A DNA stretch of 64,000 nucleotides from an uncultured Pelagibacteraceae bacterium. GTDB taxonomy: Bacteria > Pseudomonadota > Alphaproteobacteria > Pelagibacterales > Pelagibacteraceae. Numbering within the stretch: the stretch's first letter is position 1; every line of letters starts with the position of its first letter. Positions 6,913 to 32,606 of the stretch are shown piece by piece. The stretch is from positions 1 to 64,000 of the forward strand of contig CACAYM010000002.1 in NCBI GenBank assembly GCA_902536765.1, read 5' to 3'. The notes beneath the pieces were generated by a model. That model did not search any database and was not told the origin of the DNA. It worked only from the letters and a program-made list of their open reading frames with translations. The position numbers were made by a program, and so were the translations under genes.

Positions 6913-9240
6913 ATGAAAAATTTATTTTTATTACTTTTTTTTACAATATTTGTTTCAAACTTAGCGAAAGCCGAGGCATTGTCTGTGACATGGAAAGCTA
7001 GTCATATTCCAGATGGAAGCAATACCGGTGGAGTAGGTCCAACTAATTGTAGAGCTACCACAAATAATGCTTTGCTAGATAAAGATAGCGCACAGGATCC
7101 TTATGATCTTGCCTTTAGTGAGGATGGTCTTCAAATCTTTATTGCTAACAGAGCTTCTGATGGTGATATATCTGATAACCCATTAAGAATGAATAGACTC
7201 GGAAGCCCATTTAATATTCTATCAGATAAAATGGGTTTTGACCCAAGTGCAACCTGTGATGATGTAGATGGTGCAAATCCGAATGATGTATCTGGTGGTG
7301 CTTTGAGTTCTGATCACGTAAAAAGTATACATATTGCTGATGGTGGAAGTATATTTTTTACTTTAAATACAGGTGGTGTGATTGGTAAATTTAATTTAAC
7401 CACTCCATACGATATTAGTACCATGACATATGAAAGAAAGTTTGACACTGGTACAGTACAAAACGACAGTATGCATTTTAGTAGAGACGGATCAAAAATG
7501 TATACACTAAGTTCGTTTACAGCAAACCCAATTGTTACAACTTATACTTTATCAGAACCCTTTGATATCTCATCACCAACTGAAATTCATTCAATTGATT
7601 TAGATACAAAGGGGATTGATGTTAGTACACCAAATCATAATCAGGGATTTGACATCGAATTTACGCCTGATGGTAGTGCTATGTTTATTTTAATGATGAA
7701 CAAAAATGTTGTTGATAATGCTGATATACCAACAAGTAAAAACTTCATTTACCAATTTAGTTTATCTACAAATTATGATGTATCCACAGCCACTAATTTA
7801 GGTAGTTTTCATATAGATGATGTATTTCTTAATAGAGCTAGTGGTGATCGAGATGGTTACCCAAGAGGTTTCGCATTTTCAAGCGATGGAATGAAATTAT
7901 TTATTGCAGATCAACAACATGACTCTACTGCTTCAGACCATATAAACGAATTTCAATTAGAGTGTCCATACGGCCTTGTTAAATGTGTATCTGATCCAAC
8001 TACAGTTATTAGTTCTGCAGTTCAATTATCAAAACAAAATATCAATTTAAATATTTCAACAATTTTTAAAAGATTTGAATGGATCAAAAGAAATAGAGAT
8101 AAAGAAAAACTTAATAGCTTTAATATAAACTACAAAACATTAAATCCTGTTGTGACTTCTATATCGAATAAATTAAAAGATAGTAAATTTTTAAGACAAG
8201 CTTCAATAACAAGTGGCTCAAACAGTAGTAGCAAAAAATCAAAATGGTCTTATTGGAGTAATGGCGATATATCAATTGGCAATTATGAGAATACACCTAT
8301 AGAAAGACCAAAACATATTAAGACCACAGGTTTAACATTCGGTGCTGACAAAAAAATTGATGACAATAAATTCTTTGGCTTAGCCTTAAGATTTGCGCAA
8401 AATGAATCTAATACAAGAGGAACACCACATGAGGTGGATATGGAATCTTTAACTTTGAATCTTTATGGTATTGCACCACAAAGTGAACAAAAATATATAA
8501 ATGCTGTCGTTGGATTAAGTGTTTTAAGATTTGACCATAAACACTTTGGGAAACTAACTGGTGAAAGGAATGGAAAACAAATATTTACTGCGATAAACTT
8601 TAGAAATTTTGATACTTATAAAGATTTCAATTTCTCTCCATCTGGAAGAATTACTTATGGGTTAACTCATCTAGATGACTTTACAAATTTCGTCTCTACA
8701 AAAAATCCCTCAATTGATATTATCTACGAAGAGGATACTTTTGAAACTGCCGAAATTGCAGTTGGCTTTTTATTTGATTTAAAAGAGTACGATTTTACGG
8801 ACGGGACTTTCAATACTAATGGTGGCTTAGAAGCTGTTTATGATCTAACACCAGATGTTAAGTTTGAGCATTCAAGTCAAGGGAGTTCTACCGTTAATAC
8901 TGTTGAAATAGATAATTATTCTGAAAAGAATGTTAGAGCAAATTTAGGTTTTGAAGTTATCTACTTAAGTGGATTAACATTTTCAGCAAATTACGAAAGA
9001 TTTCAGAGTCTTGACAGTCATAGATTTTCTCACACAGATAGTCTTTTAATAAAATTTGGACATATAAATGAAGAAGATTCTGAATTTGCATTTAATTTTG
9101 ATCCTTTGATAAATAATTTAGCAGAATTAACATACATAAAAGATTTGAATGGTTTTGATGTTAGATTGAATTCTTCTTATAATTTTAATTCACCAATACC
9201 TGAATACGGAGCAAATTTAGAGCTTTCAAGTACTTTTTAA
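6913..9240 (+). CDS. Large secreted beta-propeller-like / autotransporter-barrel outer-membrane protein (copy 2)
   Basis: 775 residues, colinear with the preceding gene: signal peptide (about 1-21, ends KAEA), propeller-like passenger with SxDGxxxF blades, the shared linker KRFEWIKRNR near residue 395, a KSKWSxWS segment, and a C-terminal barrel ending in Phe (SSTF). Both copies share SLTLNLYGIAP and LTYGxTHL-type barrel strands. The barrel half is more alike than the passenger by eye, consistent with diversification of the exposed part. The function is unknown. It has its own upstream candidate promoter. Confidence 0.75.
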   Translation: MKNLFLLLFFTIFVSNLAKAEALSVTWKASHIPDGSNTGGVGPTNCRATTNNALLDKDSAQDPYDLAFSEDGLQIFIANRASDGDISDNPLRMNRLGSPFNILSDKMGFDPSATCDDVDGANPNDVSGGALSSDHVKSIHIADGGSIFFTLNTGGVIGKFNLTTPYDISTMTYERKFDTGTVQNDSMHFSRDGSKMYTLSSFTANPIVTTYTLSEPFDISSPTEIHSIDLDTKGIDVSTPNHNQGFDIEFTPDGSAMFILMMNKNVVDNADIPTSKNFIYQFSLSTNYDVSTATNLGSFHIDDVFLNRASGDRDGYPRGFAFSSDGMKLFIADQQHDSTASDHINEFQLECPYGLVKCVSDPTTVISSAVQLSKQNINLNISTIFKRFEWIKRNRDKEKLNSFNINYKTLNPVVTSISNKLKDSKFLRQASITSGSNSSSKKSKWSYWSNGDISIGNYENTPIERPKHIKTTGLTFGADKKIDDNKFFGLALRFAQNESNTRGTPHEVDMESLTLNLYGIAPQSEQKYINAVVGLSVLRFDHKHFGKLTGERNGKQIFTAINFRNFDTYKDFNFSPSGRITYGLTHLDDFTNFVSTKNPSIDIIYEEDTFETAEIAVGFLFDLKEYDFTDGTFNTNGGLEAVYDLTPDVKFEHSSQGSSTVNTVEIDNYSEKNVRANLGFEVIYLSGLTFSANYERFQSLDSHRFSHTDSLLIKFGHINEEDSEFAFNFDPLINNLAELTYIKDLNGFDVRLNSSYNFNSPIPEYGANLELSSTF

Positions 9241-29948: not shown

Positions 29949-30641
29949 ATGTCAAGATTTTCAAAGTCTATCACAATCATGATTTTATTAATTACTTTTC
30001 AATCACCTTTAGTTGCATCTGATAAGGAATATTATGAAAATTTAGTTTCAAATTGGTCAAAAATTTTTCCTGATCAAAATAGAAATGCTGCTGGACCAAA
30101 GTTTTTTAAGTTTATAATTGATCAAGATATGAATTATAAAGAATTTGTTGAATATAATAAGCTTTATTGTGCAGTTAGTGGATCATTAATAAGTCCAGGA
30201 AGTATGCCTGAATTTCTTTATGTAAATCAAGATAAGTCAAATACAAAGATTTGTGGGTATTACTATAGATGTTGTATCCCATGTTCTTGTGATGTTATGA
30301 AATATTCGAAAGTTAAAAAAATAAATTACCAATTTAAAGATGTAAAAAAAGATATTTATGTTCTTACTATAGATAATCCTTGTGGAAAAGTAGACTTTCC
30401 AAAAAGAGTAAACAAAGATTATTTTTGTAAAAATGATAAATTAGATACAAATCAAGTATTTGAAATAGATGGTAAATTAGTAATTGGTCTTTTACATAAA
30501 GCAAAACCTTGTAATGAACAAAATATAAATTACATTGCTAAAAACGAAGTGACAGGCGAATATTGTGATATAAGAAATAATACACCTGTAGAAAGTTTAC
30601 AGTCAGGAATGGGAGATATTTTTATTAAGTTAGCTCGTTAA
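29949..30641 (+). CDS. Secreted cysteine-rich protein, unknown
   Basis: 230 residues with a signal peptide (about 1-23, IMILLITFQSPLVA). The mature protein has about ten cysteines, including CGYYYRCCIPCSCDVMKYS near residues 99-118, arranged as CC-x2-C-x-C, which may bind metal or form disulfides. No family recognised. It lies 5 bp upstream of the SRAP gene. Confidence 0.65.
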   Translation: MSRFSKSITIMILLITFQSPLVASDKEYYENLVSNWSKIFPDQNRNAAGPKFFKFIIDQDMNYKEFVEYNKLYCAVSGSLISPGSMPEFLYVNQDKSNTKICGYYYRCCIPCSCDVMKYSKVKKINYQFKDVKKDIYVLTIDNPCGKVDFPKRVNKDYFCKNDKLDTNQVFEIDGKLVIGLLHKAKPCNEQNINYIAKNEVTGEYCDIRNNTPVESLQSGMGDIFIKLAR

Positions 30642-31373: not shown

Positions 31374-31832
31374 ATGAATAAAAGAAAATTTATTAAGTCA
31401 ATATTCTCAACTTTAGCTTTACTTTTTTTATTACCAAAATCTCTACTGGCAAAAGTGGAAAAAAAAATAATTAACAATTCACTTACTGAAGAACAAAAGA
31501 AAATAATGTTTAAAGAGGGTACAGAAAGACCATTTACAAGCAGTTTGAATTATGAAACTAGAGAAGGTTTTTATCACTGCGCAAATTGTAATGCTAAACT
31601 ATTTTCCTCAAATGCAAAGTTTGATAGTGGGACAGGGTGGCCATCATTTTCTGAAGCTCTTCCGGGTGCATTTAAAACAAAAGTTGATTATTCATTTGGA
31701 ATGAAACGTATTGAATACCATTGTGCTAATTGTGGAGCACACCATGGTCATGTATTTGATGACGGACCTTCAGAAACAGGAAAAAGATTTTGTAATAACG
31801 GTCTTTGTTTAATCTTTATTCCATCTAATTAA
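31374..31832 (+). CDS. msrB: Peptide-methionine (R)-S-oxide reductase with N-terminal membrane/secretion signal
   Basis: 152 residues. Reduces R-methionine sulfoxide in proteins. The zinc CxxC pairs are at 69/72 and 117/120, and the catalytic Cys is 140 in KRFCNNGLC, where a second Cys145 follows. A hydrophobic segment at 10-26 (FSTLALLFLLPKSLLA) indicates export or anchoring, so the enzyme likely acts in the periplasm. It overlaps the convergent unknown gene by four bases. Confidence 0.92.
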   Translation: MNKRKFIKSIFSTLALLFLLPKSLLAKVEKKIINNSLTEEQKKIMFKEGTERPFTSSLNYETREGFYHCANCNAKLFSSNAKFDSGTGWPSFSEALPGAFKTKVDYSFGMKRIEYHCANCGAHHGHVFDDGPSETGKRFCNNGLCLIFIPSN

Positions 31833-32272
31833 TCTATAAAATTAAGCTTAATTAATTTTTCTTTTTTTATTTCTTTACACCAAAGCTCATATGTTTCACA
31901 CATTCTCCAAACAAGTCCAAAGGCGTTTTGTGAATTTGATAATGGAAAAGAACTTTTTGCAAAATAAGCTTCATTATTTTCTTTAAATTGCTTAATAACT
32001 GTATTCTTTTGCAAGTTAAGCAAATCTATCGTTTCTTTTGGAATTTTGTTTCCAGTTTCAAAATTAATAAAATTATTCTCTTTTATTTTAGCAAAAAGAT
32101 TATCATGAAAATTCCCTTTTTTAATTTCATTAAATTCTTTTGTCGCCAAAAATCTTTCTACAAGTTCAATGTTTGTTATTTGTGGATCTGATTCTTTAAT
32201 TTTAATTAATTGAAAATAAATAGATTCTGCTAAATAGAGCATTAAAGGTTTTGAGGTGTCTTTTTTTTTCAT
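31829..32272 (-). CDS. Hypothetical protein divergent from a Fur-type box
   Basis: 147 residues, lysine/glutamate rich with a few aromatic clusters (AFGLVWRMCETYELW). No signal peptide or recognised domain. Its start is 13 bp from the first Fur-type palindrome, so iron- or metal-dependent regulation is likely. It is convergent with msrB and divergent from the Cys-rich gene at 32427. Confidence 0.7.
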   Translation of the reverse strand: MKKKDTSKPLMLYLAESIYFQLIKIKESDPQITNIELVERFLATKEFNEIKKGNFHDNLFAKIKENNFINFETGNKIPKETIDLLNLQKNTVIKQFKENNEAYFAKSSFPLSNSQNAFGLVWRMCETYELWCKEIKKEKLIKLNFID

Positions 32273-32282
32273 TTTATTTTTT

Positions 32283-32304
32283 GTTAATGATAATCATTAT
32301 TAAC
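32283..32304. promoter_or_regulatory. Fur-type palindromic box 1
   Basis: Centre AATGAT-A-ATCATT (32286-32298) inside GTTAATGATAATCATTATTAAC. The two arms are perfect and the site resembles the classical Fur consensus of alternating GATAAT/ATTATC. It lies just upstream of the 31829-32272 gene. Binding is inferred; Fur, Mur, Irr or another metalloregulator could be involved. Confidence 0.75.
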
Positions 32305-32343
32305 TAAATTTTTTTTTATTAATTTTATGCATTTTTTTTTTGA

Positions 32344-32358
32344 TAATGATTATCATTA
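32344..32358. promoter_or_regulatory. Fur-type palindromic box 2
   Basis: TAATGATTATCATTA (7-1-7 palindrome) centred at 32351, preceded by TGA to give TGATAATGATTATCATTA, a near-consensus Fur box. It lies about 70 bp upstream of the Cys-rich gene at 32427. The core 13-mer is the reverse complement of box 1. Confidence 0.8.
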
Positions 32359-32426
32359 GTTTTGAGATTTATTATCAAAAATTTTAAAAAAGTTGAAAAA
32401 TAATTTTTTTTTCTTATTTTATCCAT

Positions 32427-32606
32427 ATGGAACTAGAAACTCACAACTGTAGAAAATGTGGTTTAACAATATCGGCAACATGTTCAAAATGTCATAGAGT
32501 TGTTGATGTTAAGAAACTTGATGACGGATGTATCGTAAAAGTTACTAAGTGTGGTGATTGTGCTAATACCCCAGTAATTAAAGATATCTGTACTAATCAG
32601 GCTTAA
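32427..32606 (+). CDS. Cys-rich zinc-ribbon-like micro-protein under a Fur-type box
   Basis: 59 residues with eight cysteines: C8-x2-C11, C19-x2-C22, C35, C42-x2-C45 and C55. The CRKCGLTISATCSKCHR start forms a zinc-ribbon-like double knuckle. No signal peptide or transmembrane helix. It has a clear ATG after an AT-rich leader and a Fur box upstream. I do not recognise the family; metal binding is inferred from the cysteines. Confidence 0.7.
   Translation: MELETHNCRKCGLTISATCSKCHRVVDVKKLDDGCIVKVTKCGDCANTPVIKDICTNQA

Follow-up and report, generated by a model that had tools for sequence, protein, structure and literature searches.

Conserved Fur-type boxes precede the gene of a 59-residue protein with eight cysteines in Pelagibacteraceae

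Two Fur-type boxes lie between divergent open reading frames in the genome of an uncultured member of the Pelagibacteraceae, and this locus raises the question of which gene the boxes serve, which regulator would bind them and in which direction it would act. SAR11 bacteria are the commonest bacteria of the ocean; they live at very low iron concentrations and have few regulators. The stretch of DNA that was analysed comprises 64,000 nucleotides (‘the window’) and belongs to a source genome (G000) of 1,139,341 bases in 20 contigs, which is 92.82 per cent complete. The distal box occupies positions 32283-32301 (GTTAATGATAATCATTATT; centre 32292, -135 from the ATG of a plus-strand gene for 59 amino acids) and the proximal box positions 32342-32360 (GATAATGATTATCATTAGT; centre 32351, -76 from the same ATG), both without an assigned strand. 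The consensus of the Fur box, written as a 19-mer, is RATAATGATAATCATTATY. Each box differs from it by one mismatch on its better strand, and the two near-consensus boxes of an earlier note on this DNA were thus found where it had placed them. Their 13-bp cores, noted there as common to both boxes and opposite in orientation, are indeed reverse complements, with a gap of 46 bp and a centre-to-centre distance of 59 bp. Searching the window for the 19-mer with up to three mismatches gave four matches (two sites, each on both strands) where 0.80 were expected, a count equalled in 1 of 100 shuffles. The 13-bp core with up to two mismatches showed no enrichment in the window (14 matches, 12.76 expected). 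The perfect core AATGATWATCATT occurs three times in the source genome: two copies are the window boxes and the third (G000:C2:98973) lies inside a DUF1989 coding sequence, which leaves the window boxes as the only non-coding perfect cores in the assembled sequence.

To score promoters, we trained a 21-bp palindromic matrix on nothing but sfuC promoters (30 sites from 30 relatives, 15 of them distinct), loci having been obtained for 30 of 50 sfuC matches. It gave 17.0 bits for the distal and 17.8 bits for the proximal box. A near-consensus Fur box, one of our criteria for the Fur regulon, is present in the promoter of the 59-aa gene. A threshold of 8 bits alone is lax, since seven other sites in the window pass it. 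Further window sites found with this matrix have their centres at 8914 (12.7 bits) and 34898 (10.9 bits). In a first set of 101 genomes, source genome included, the 59-aa protein matched 27, of which 23 carry a protein of the 59-aa type and four one of a longer, 63-aa type, and the 147-aa protein encoded on the other side of the boxes matched 36. Promoters of the 59-aa type scored 12.7-26.3 bits in 23 of 23 cases (window included), those of the 63-aa type -2.5 to 8.5 in four of four and those of other 147-aa orthologues -8.3 to 2.6 in 29 of 29, six more orthologues without a locus being left out. A scan of named genomes then confirmed 301 relatives, the best 80 of which were kept; this larger set overlaps partly with the first, and all 80 are named Pelagibacteraceae, Pelagibacterales or Pelagibacter, in agreement with the SAR11 origin presumed in the earlier note. 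Among the best 80 of 301, at least one site of at least 8 bits was present in 79 of 79 distinct promoters and two in 77 of 79, and the top site reached at least 14.1 bits in 80 of 80 loci. Conservation of the boxes in relatives, which the earlier note had proposed as a check, was thus seen in all 23 promoters of the first set and, with at least one box, in all of the best 80 loci. The linkage of boxes and gene is kept although the neighbouring genes vary between loci. Judged from these comparisons, the boxes are a conserved Fur-type operator that belongs to the 59-aa gene. Between the presence of the 59-aa gene and that of sfuC across genomes no clear link was seen by eye.

Two other explanations for the boxes bear directly on this assignment. 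With a GC content of 24-34 per cent, palindromes might arise by chance, and the genome does hold eight further cores with one mismatch, while two of the seven other window sites reach 10 bits; the boxes nevertheless stand before every examined orthologue of the 59-aa type, and matches of at least 10 bits numbered 163 in the 160-bp promoters versus four in 461,283 flanking bases (best 80 of 301). This conservation refutes chance palindromes, whose probability we consider negligible. The 59-aa gene might instead form a genuine two-gene module, with the boxes as common operator, together with the 147-aa gene (31829-32272, minus strand), whose start lies 20 bp from the distal box centre in the window. 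A relative of the 147-aa gene is found near the 59-aa gene in 12 of the best 80 loci. In ten of them it is divergent across the boxes, with the distal box centre 20-25 bp ahead of its start, and in two more it is convergent downstream. Such a module is very unlikely, however, because boxes were found at none of the 29 other 147-aa orthologues examined and 68 of the best 80 loci have no 147-aa relative within up to 3 kb on each side (some flanks being shorter). Since all ten divergent loci are close to the window's protein, the 147-aa gene may be affected in the window's subclade, given the position of the distal box; beyond this subclade it was ruled out as the target. Of the divergent pair that the earlier note had described as driven by the boxes, the arrangement itself was recovered in ten of the best 80 loci and the shared control was not. 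In the reading that we prefer, the boxes would act on the 59-aa gene, and it would be by chance of location that the 147-aa neighbour meets them in one subclade.

The 147-aa protein is predicted to be helical, and no family was found for it: there was no Pfam match, and its model (pLDDT 79.4) had no match in the PDB at E 0.001 or better, so that it is as unfamiliar as had been remarked. Another protein without a Pfam match, of 230 amino acids, is encoded at 29949-30641 of the window and carries a cysteine cluster (CGYYYRCCIPCSC) and, by eye, a start resembling a signal peptide. In the window the 59-aa gene stops 6 bp short of where a convergent GMC oxidoreductase gene ends, and because this gene follows directly downstream the 59-aa gene is probably transcribed alone. 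Neighbours were counted up to 3 kb on each side, with shorter flanks upstream in five loci and downstream in seven. Among the best 80 loci, katG was found in 47, an Asp/Asn hydroxylase gene in 46, a DUF2061 gene in 46, msrB in 10 and a redoxin-like gene in 17, this last label coming from a 60-residue piece that scored 25.1 bits, under the cut-off of 26.6. Boxes and gene thus stay together amid changing surroundings, often beside katG or msrB. At least one of katG, redoxin or msrB lies nearby in 57 of the best 80 loci, a number that reduces to two non-independent neighbourhoods (47 katG, 10 msrB) without a control, and a link of the 59-aa gene to oxidative stress is hinted at, no more. One label and one candidate site were discarded. 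A PsiE-like label for a 126-aa upstream gene had been given by eye, and a 60-residue piece of it had no Pfam match. A site of 16.3 bits on contig 13 of the source genome, before the Asp/Asn hydroxylase gene, was not counted as a Fur target because it (L062:1468-1482) falls on the opening codons of hemB, a divergent gene (ATG ATT ATC ACT, on the other strand), whose coding conservation can account for it; of the 21 rows examined, a number that includes the own genome but not L207 and nine further loci, seven had this site, with scores of 11.1-16.3 bits.

The 59-aa gene itself (32427-32606, plus strand) is an open reading frame conserved in relatives, and its product has cysteines at positions 8, 11, 19, 22, 35, 42, 45 and 55, which include three CxxC pairs. 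All eight stand at identical positions in 47 of 47 distinct proteins from the best 80 loci, which bears out the earlier description of a cysteine-rich 59-residue protein. Pairwise comparison of the best 80 gave 56,676 synonymous versus 28,145 non-synonymous codon changes, and 68,914 of 105,135 base changes fell on third codon positions, the pairs being non-independent in both counts. By this pattern of changes, the gene is real and under purifying selection. The protein had also been placed outside known families, and this agrees with our searches, in which no Pfam or NCBIfam family exceeded its cut-off and PHROGs gave no match at E 0.001. The double zinc ribbon family (DZR, PF12773) scored 17.5 bits, below its curated cut-off of 27.3; by its CxxC pairs, the protein looks zinc-ribbon-like. 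The AlphaFold model was unusable, with a pLDDT of 49.5. No relatives were found in phage records (query of the 63-aa type), plasmids (59-aa protein) or viral contigs (59-aa type), and the listings and passages of the open-access literature that we consulted contain no report of the gene. On this sequence evidence, the protein represents a new family of Cys8 microproteins.

Comparison with known systems places this family more closely. The 63-aa type (MATYECSxCGM...CCGxDM), present in a few alphaproteobacteria, is homologous to the 59-aa type in its first half, including the first two CxxC pairs, but differs in its second half, which has a CCGxDM-like end. Of 385 genomes drawn from across the class, eight were matched by a 63-aa query, six with the 63-aa type and two (G000 and G307) with the 59-aa type. 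The six additional 63-aa-type promoters scored at most 4.1 bits, so that all ten promoters examined of this type stay below 12.7 bits, the lowest score of the 59-aa type, the best having 8.5 (L024). One of them, L025, carries a one-mismatch core at -76 that is not favoured by the sfuC matrix. Both types occupy matching places: a position between dnaJ and dapB is common to the 63-aa type in L024 and the 59-aa type in L014, L021 and L023 (the latter labels given by eye), and a position next to DUF2061 is common to the 63-aa type in L201/L202 and the 59-aa type in L204. These shared places suggest that the boxes were acquired by an ancestor that had none. The 63-aa type has its CCGxDM-like ending in common with Fe(Cys)4 proteins of the desulforedoxin type (desulforedoxin/desulfoferrodoxin N-terminal domain, PF06397), with 11.5 bits (curated cut-off 23) and E 0.25 over eight residues; the 59-aa protein had no match to this family. 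The CxxC zinc-finger microprotein HVO_2753 of Haloferax likewise has about 60 residues and several CxxC pairs. With 6ydh, which we take to be HVO_2753, a 59-aa family profile aligned over its first 24 positions at a non-significant E of 0.012; this alignment is confined to the part around the first two CxxC pairs and reaches into another domain of life. The SAR11 Fur targets sfuABC and FTR1 have the same 21-bp palindrome, mostly in two or more boxes, and a Fur gene is present. According to passages of PMC4771312, Fur boxes in 22 SAR11 genomes always precede components of Fe3+ ABC transporters and FTR1 permeases, and four SAR11 genomes have no Fur boxes. These known targets are transporters, whereas the 59-aa target is a small non-transporter gene, and its boxes have a centre-to-centre distance of about 30, 50 or 60 bp (22 bp in one case) in contrast to 22 bp in 25 of 30 sfuC promoters. 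The FTR1 iron-permease gene of the relative G029 (L072:1501-2201) has the same kind of box upstream. In many sfuC promoters (L087-L112) we noticed by eye a TGCGACA heptamer shortly before the first Fur box, which may be a -35 element or the site of another factor.

Between the boxes and the 59-aa gene, a candidate promoter was found on the plus strand, with a -35 hexamer TTGAAA at 32393-32398 (-34 from the ATG) and a -10 hexamer TATTTT at 32415-32420 (-12). A TTG hexamer at -35/-34 occurs in 80 of the best 80 loci (TTGAAA in 39, TTGAAT in 25). TAnnnT stands at -12 in 44 of them, and none of the other offsets between -40 and -1 has it in more than 17; at -13 it stands in 13, which is not above some other offsets. 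Shine-Dalgarno-like 4-mers within 20 nt of the start are present in 4 of the best 80 59-aa loci versus 20 of 30 sfuC genes, some of whose starts may be misplaced by a few codons. A -10 element at -12 puts the transcription start at or next to the A of the ATG, and the mRNA of the 59-aa gene is, going by this predicted promoter, probably leaderless. An unconstrained scan of 22 promoters for sigma-70-like elements gave the best match at -35/-34 with -12 in six, at -35/-34 with -14 in one, inside the boxes (-80/-58) in seven and elsewhere in eight. The seven with a match inside the boxes belong to the class with a box spacing of 30 bp, and the other classes cannot form such a match.

The positions of the boxes relative to this promoter fall into few classes. 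In the 79 distinct promoters of the best 80 loci, box centres lie at -55/-56 (69), -76/-77 (11), -85 to -87 (29), -104 to -107 (29), -117 (8) and -134/-135 (10) from the ATG, and 156 of 156 centres fall at 4-7 modulo 10. Outside the window's subclade the proximal box stands at -55/-56, within it at -76 and thus 20 bp farther up. For the six class values, the phase statistic R was 0.94 at a period of 10.0 bp, 0.87 at 10.2 and 0.65 at 10.5, and the best phase value was reached by 0.23 per cent of 20,000 random draws (P 0.0023). Because this test was chosen after the data had been seen, and the spacing classes are few and related, the phasing of about 10 bp is suggestive only. On a gene tree of the 80 loci (best 80 of 301), good support was obtained for 4 of the 77 inner branches, and a minimum of eight changes in spacing label was counted; two single-box labels and one label of a 22-bp pair are single tips. 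As the labels were rounded to 10 bp, these changes are uninformative on phase. This arrangement, with box centres in steps of roughly 10 bp upstream of a conserved candidate promoter, is new.

Which regulator would bind the boxes was approached through the genome. The source genome encodes three proteins of the Fur family: one nearest to Fur, one Irr-like and one Zur-like. The Fur-like protein scored 109.1 bits with the best NCBIfam Fur model, under its cut-off of 146, and its nearest solved structures are Fur proteins, among them 5fd5 and 5fd6, presumably a manganese-responsive rhizobial Fur. The Zur-like gene adjoins znuB and znuC, and the DNA between the divergent znuC and znuA (G000:C2; L066 about 1284-1321) contains repeats of the GTTATAATATAAC type, namely two GTTATAATATTA/GTTATAATATAACA repeats, that are likely the SAR11 Zur operator. 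For a Zur regulon we looked for an operator like that of the znu genes, and the window boxes do not have it; Zur is therefore disfavoured as the binder. Among solved structures, periplasmic iron-binding proteins match SfuC. In Ca. P. ubique the sfuC transcript rises 16-fold under iron limitation, as stated in PMC2864753, the promoters in the matrix being those of the relatives themselves. In the source genome, neither a protein query nor a search with the family PF13343 gave a match to SfuC. A Fur-like gene without an SfuC match may reflect an assembly gap or a real loss, and perhaps SfuC is missing because the assembly is incomplete.

Because a matrix trained on sfuC alone finds the boxes and the likely Zur operator is a different motif, an iron-type Fur is the likeliest regulator, and we estimate a probability of roughly 0.78 that it controls the 59-aa gene, in either direction. 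The earlier view of the boxes as Fur-type is supported, with iron as the likeliest metal. Binding by Zur, by Irr or by a manganese-responsive Fur is quite unlikely in our estimate. Zur-like and Irr-like proteins are encoded in the source genome, the metal may be manganese, given 5fd5 and 5fd6 among the nearest solved relatives of its Fur, and passages of PMC4771312 describe the choice of metal within the Fur family as hard to tell from sequence; yet the znuA-znuC motif differs from the boxes, which are the same as the one before the iron-uptake gene sfuC. As to the direction of control by an iron-type Fur, metal-loaded Fur might repress the 59-aa gene, either by obstructing the upstream promoter region or by occluding a promoter within the boxes, so that the protein would be made under iron limitation together with SfuC. 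This rival is compatible with Fur control as such. It agrees with the motif shared with sfuC, whose transcript rises when iron is limiting, with repression as the usual action of Fur described in passages of PMC3751524, and with the seven of 22 promoters whose best sigma-70-like match lies inside the boxes, a position that implies ordinary repression in those loci. On the other hand, the same passages show repressed genes with Fur sites that overlap the -35 and -10 elements, whereas here the TTG hexamer lies downstream of the boxes in 80 of the best 80 loci, and the TTG and TAnnnT elements have not moved in the window's subclade, where the proximal box has its more distant place. Plain repression cannot be assumed with boxes that stand upstream of the conserved candidate promoter and do not cover it, and by this geometry activation is as likely as repression. 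The arrangement of the boxes is slightly easier to reconcile with an activator that works from one DNA face than with a repressor that covers the promoter. We therefore very slightly prefer activation of the 59-aa gene by metal-loaded Fur, to which we give just under even odds, over derepression at low iron, whose odds we put somewhat below even.

Under the preferred reading, control by an iron-type Fur with activation as its tentative direction, the Fur protein would bind two boxes upstream of one small gene. The distance between the boxes, and that from them to a sigma-70-like promoter, would be close to whole turns of the helix, and this promoter would make a leaderless mRNA for the 59-aa protein. 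With Cys4 sites the protein would bind a metal (Zn or Fe) and serve iron or thiol housekeeping, and the operator suggests that its level follows the iron supply. The complete proposal, that Fur directly activates the leaderless gene of the Cys8 protein from one face of the DNA and that the protein acts as an iron buffer or protects thiols at plentiful iron, is possible but unlikely as a whole. Passages of PMC2864753 report the genome of Ca. P. ubique to be without ferritin. The 59-aa gene would be a further Fur target beyond the uptake genes reported for SAR11. It offers a one-gene test of direct activation by Fur in SAR11, with the spacing classes as promoter variants that nature has supplied for it. 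As a conserved non-transporter target with an operator geometry of its own, it would show what else SAR11 bacteria adjust as iron changes.
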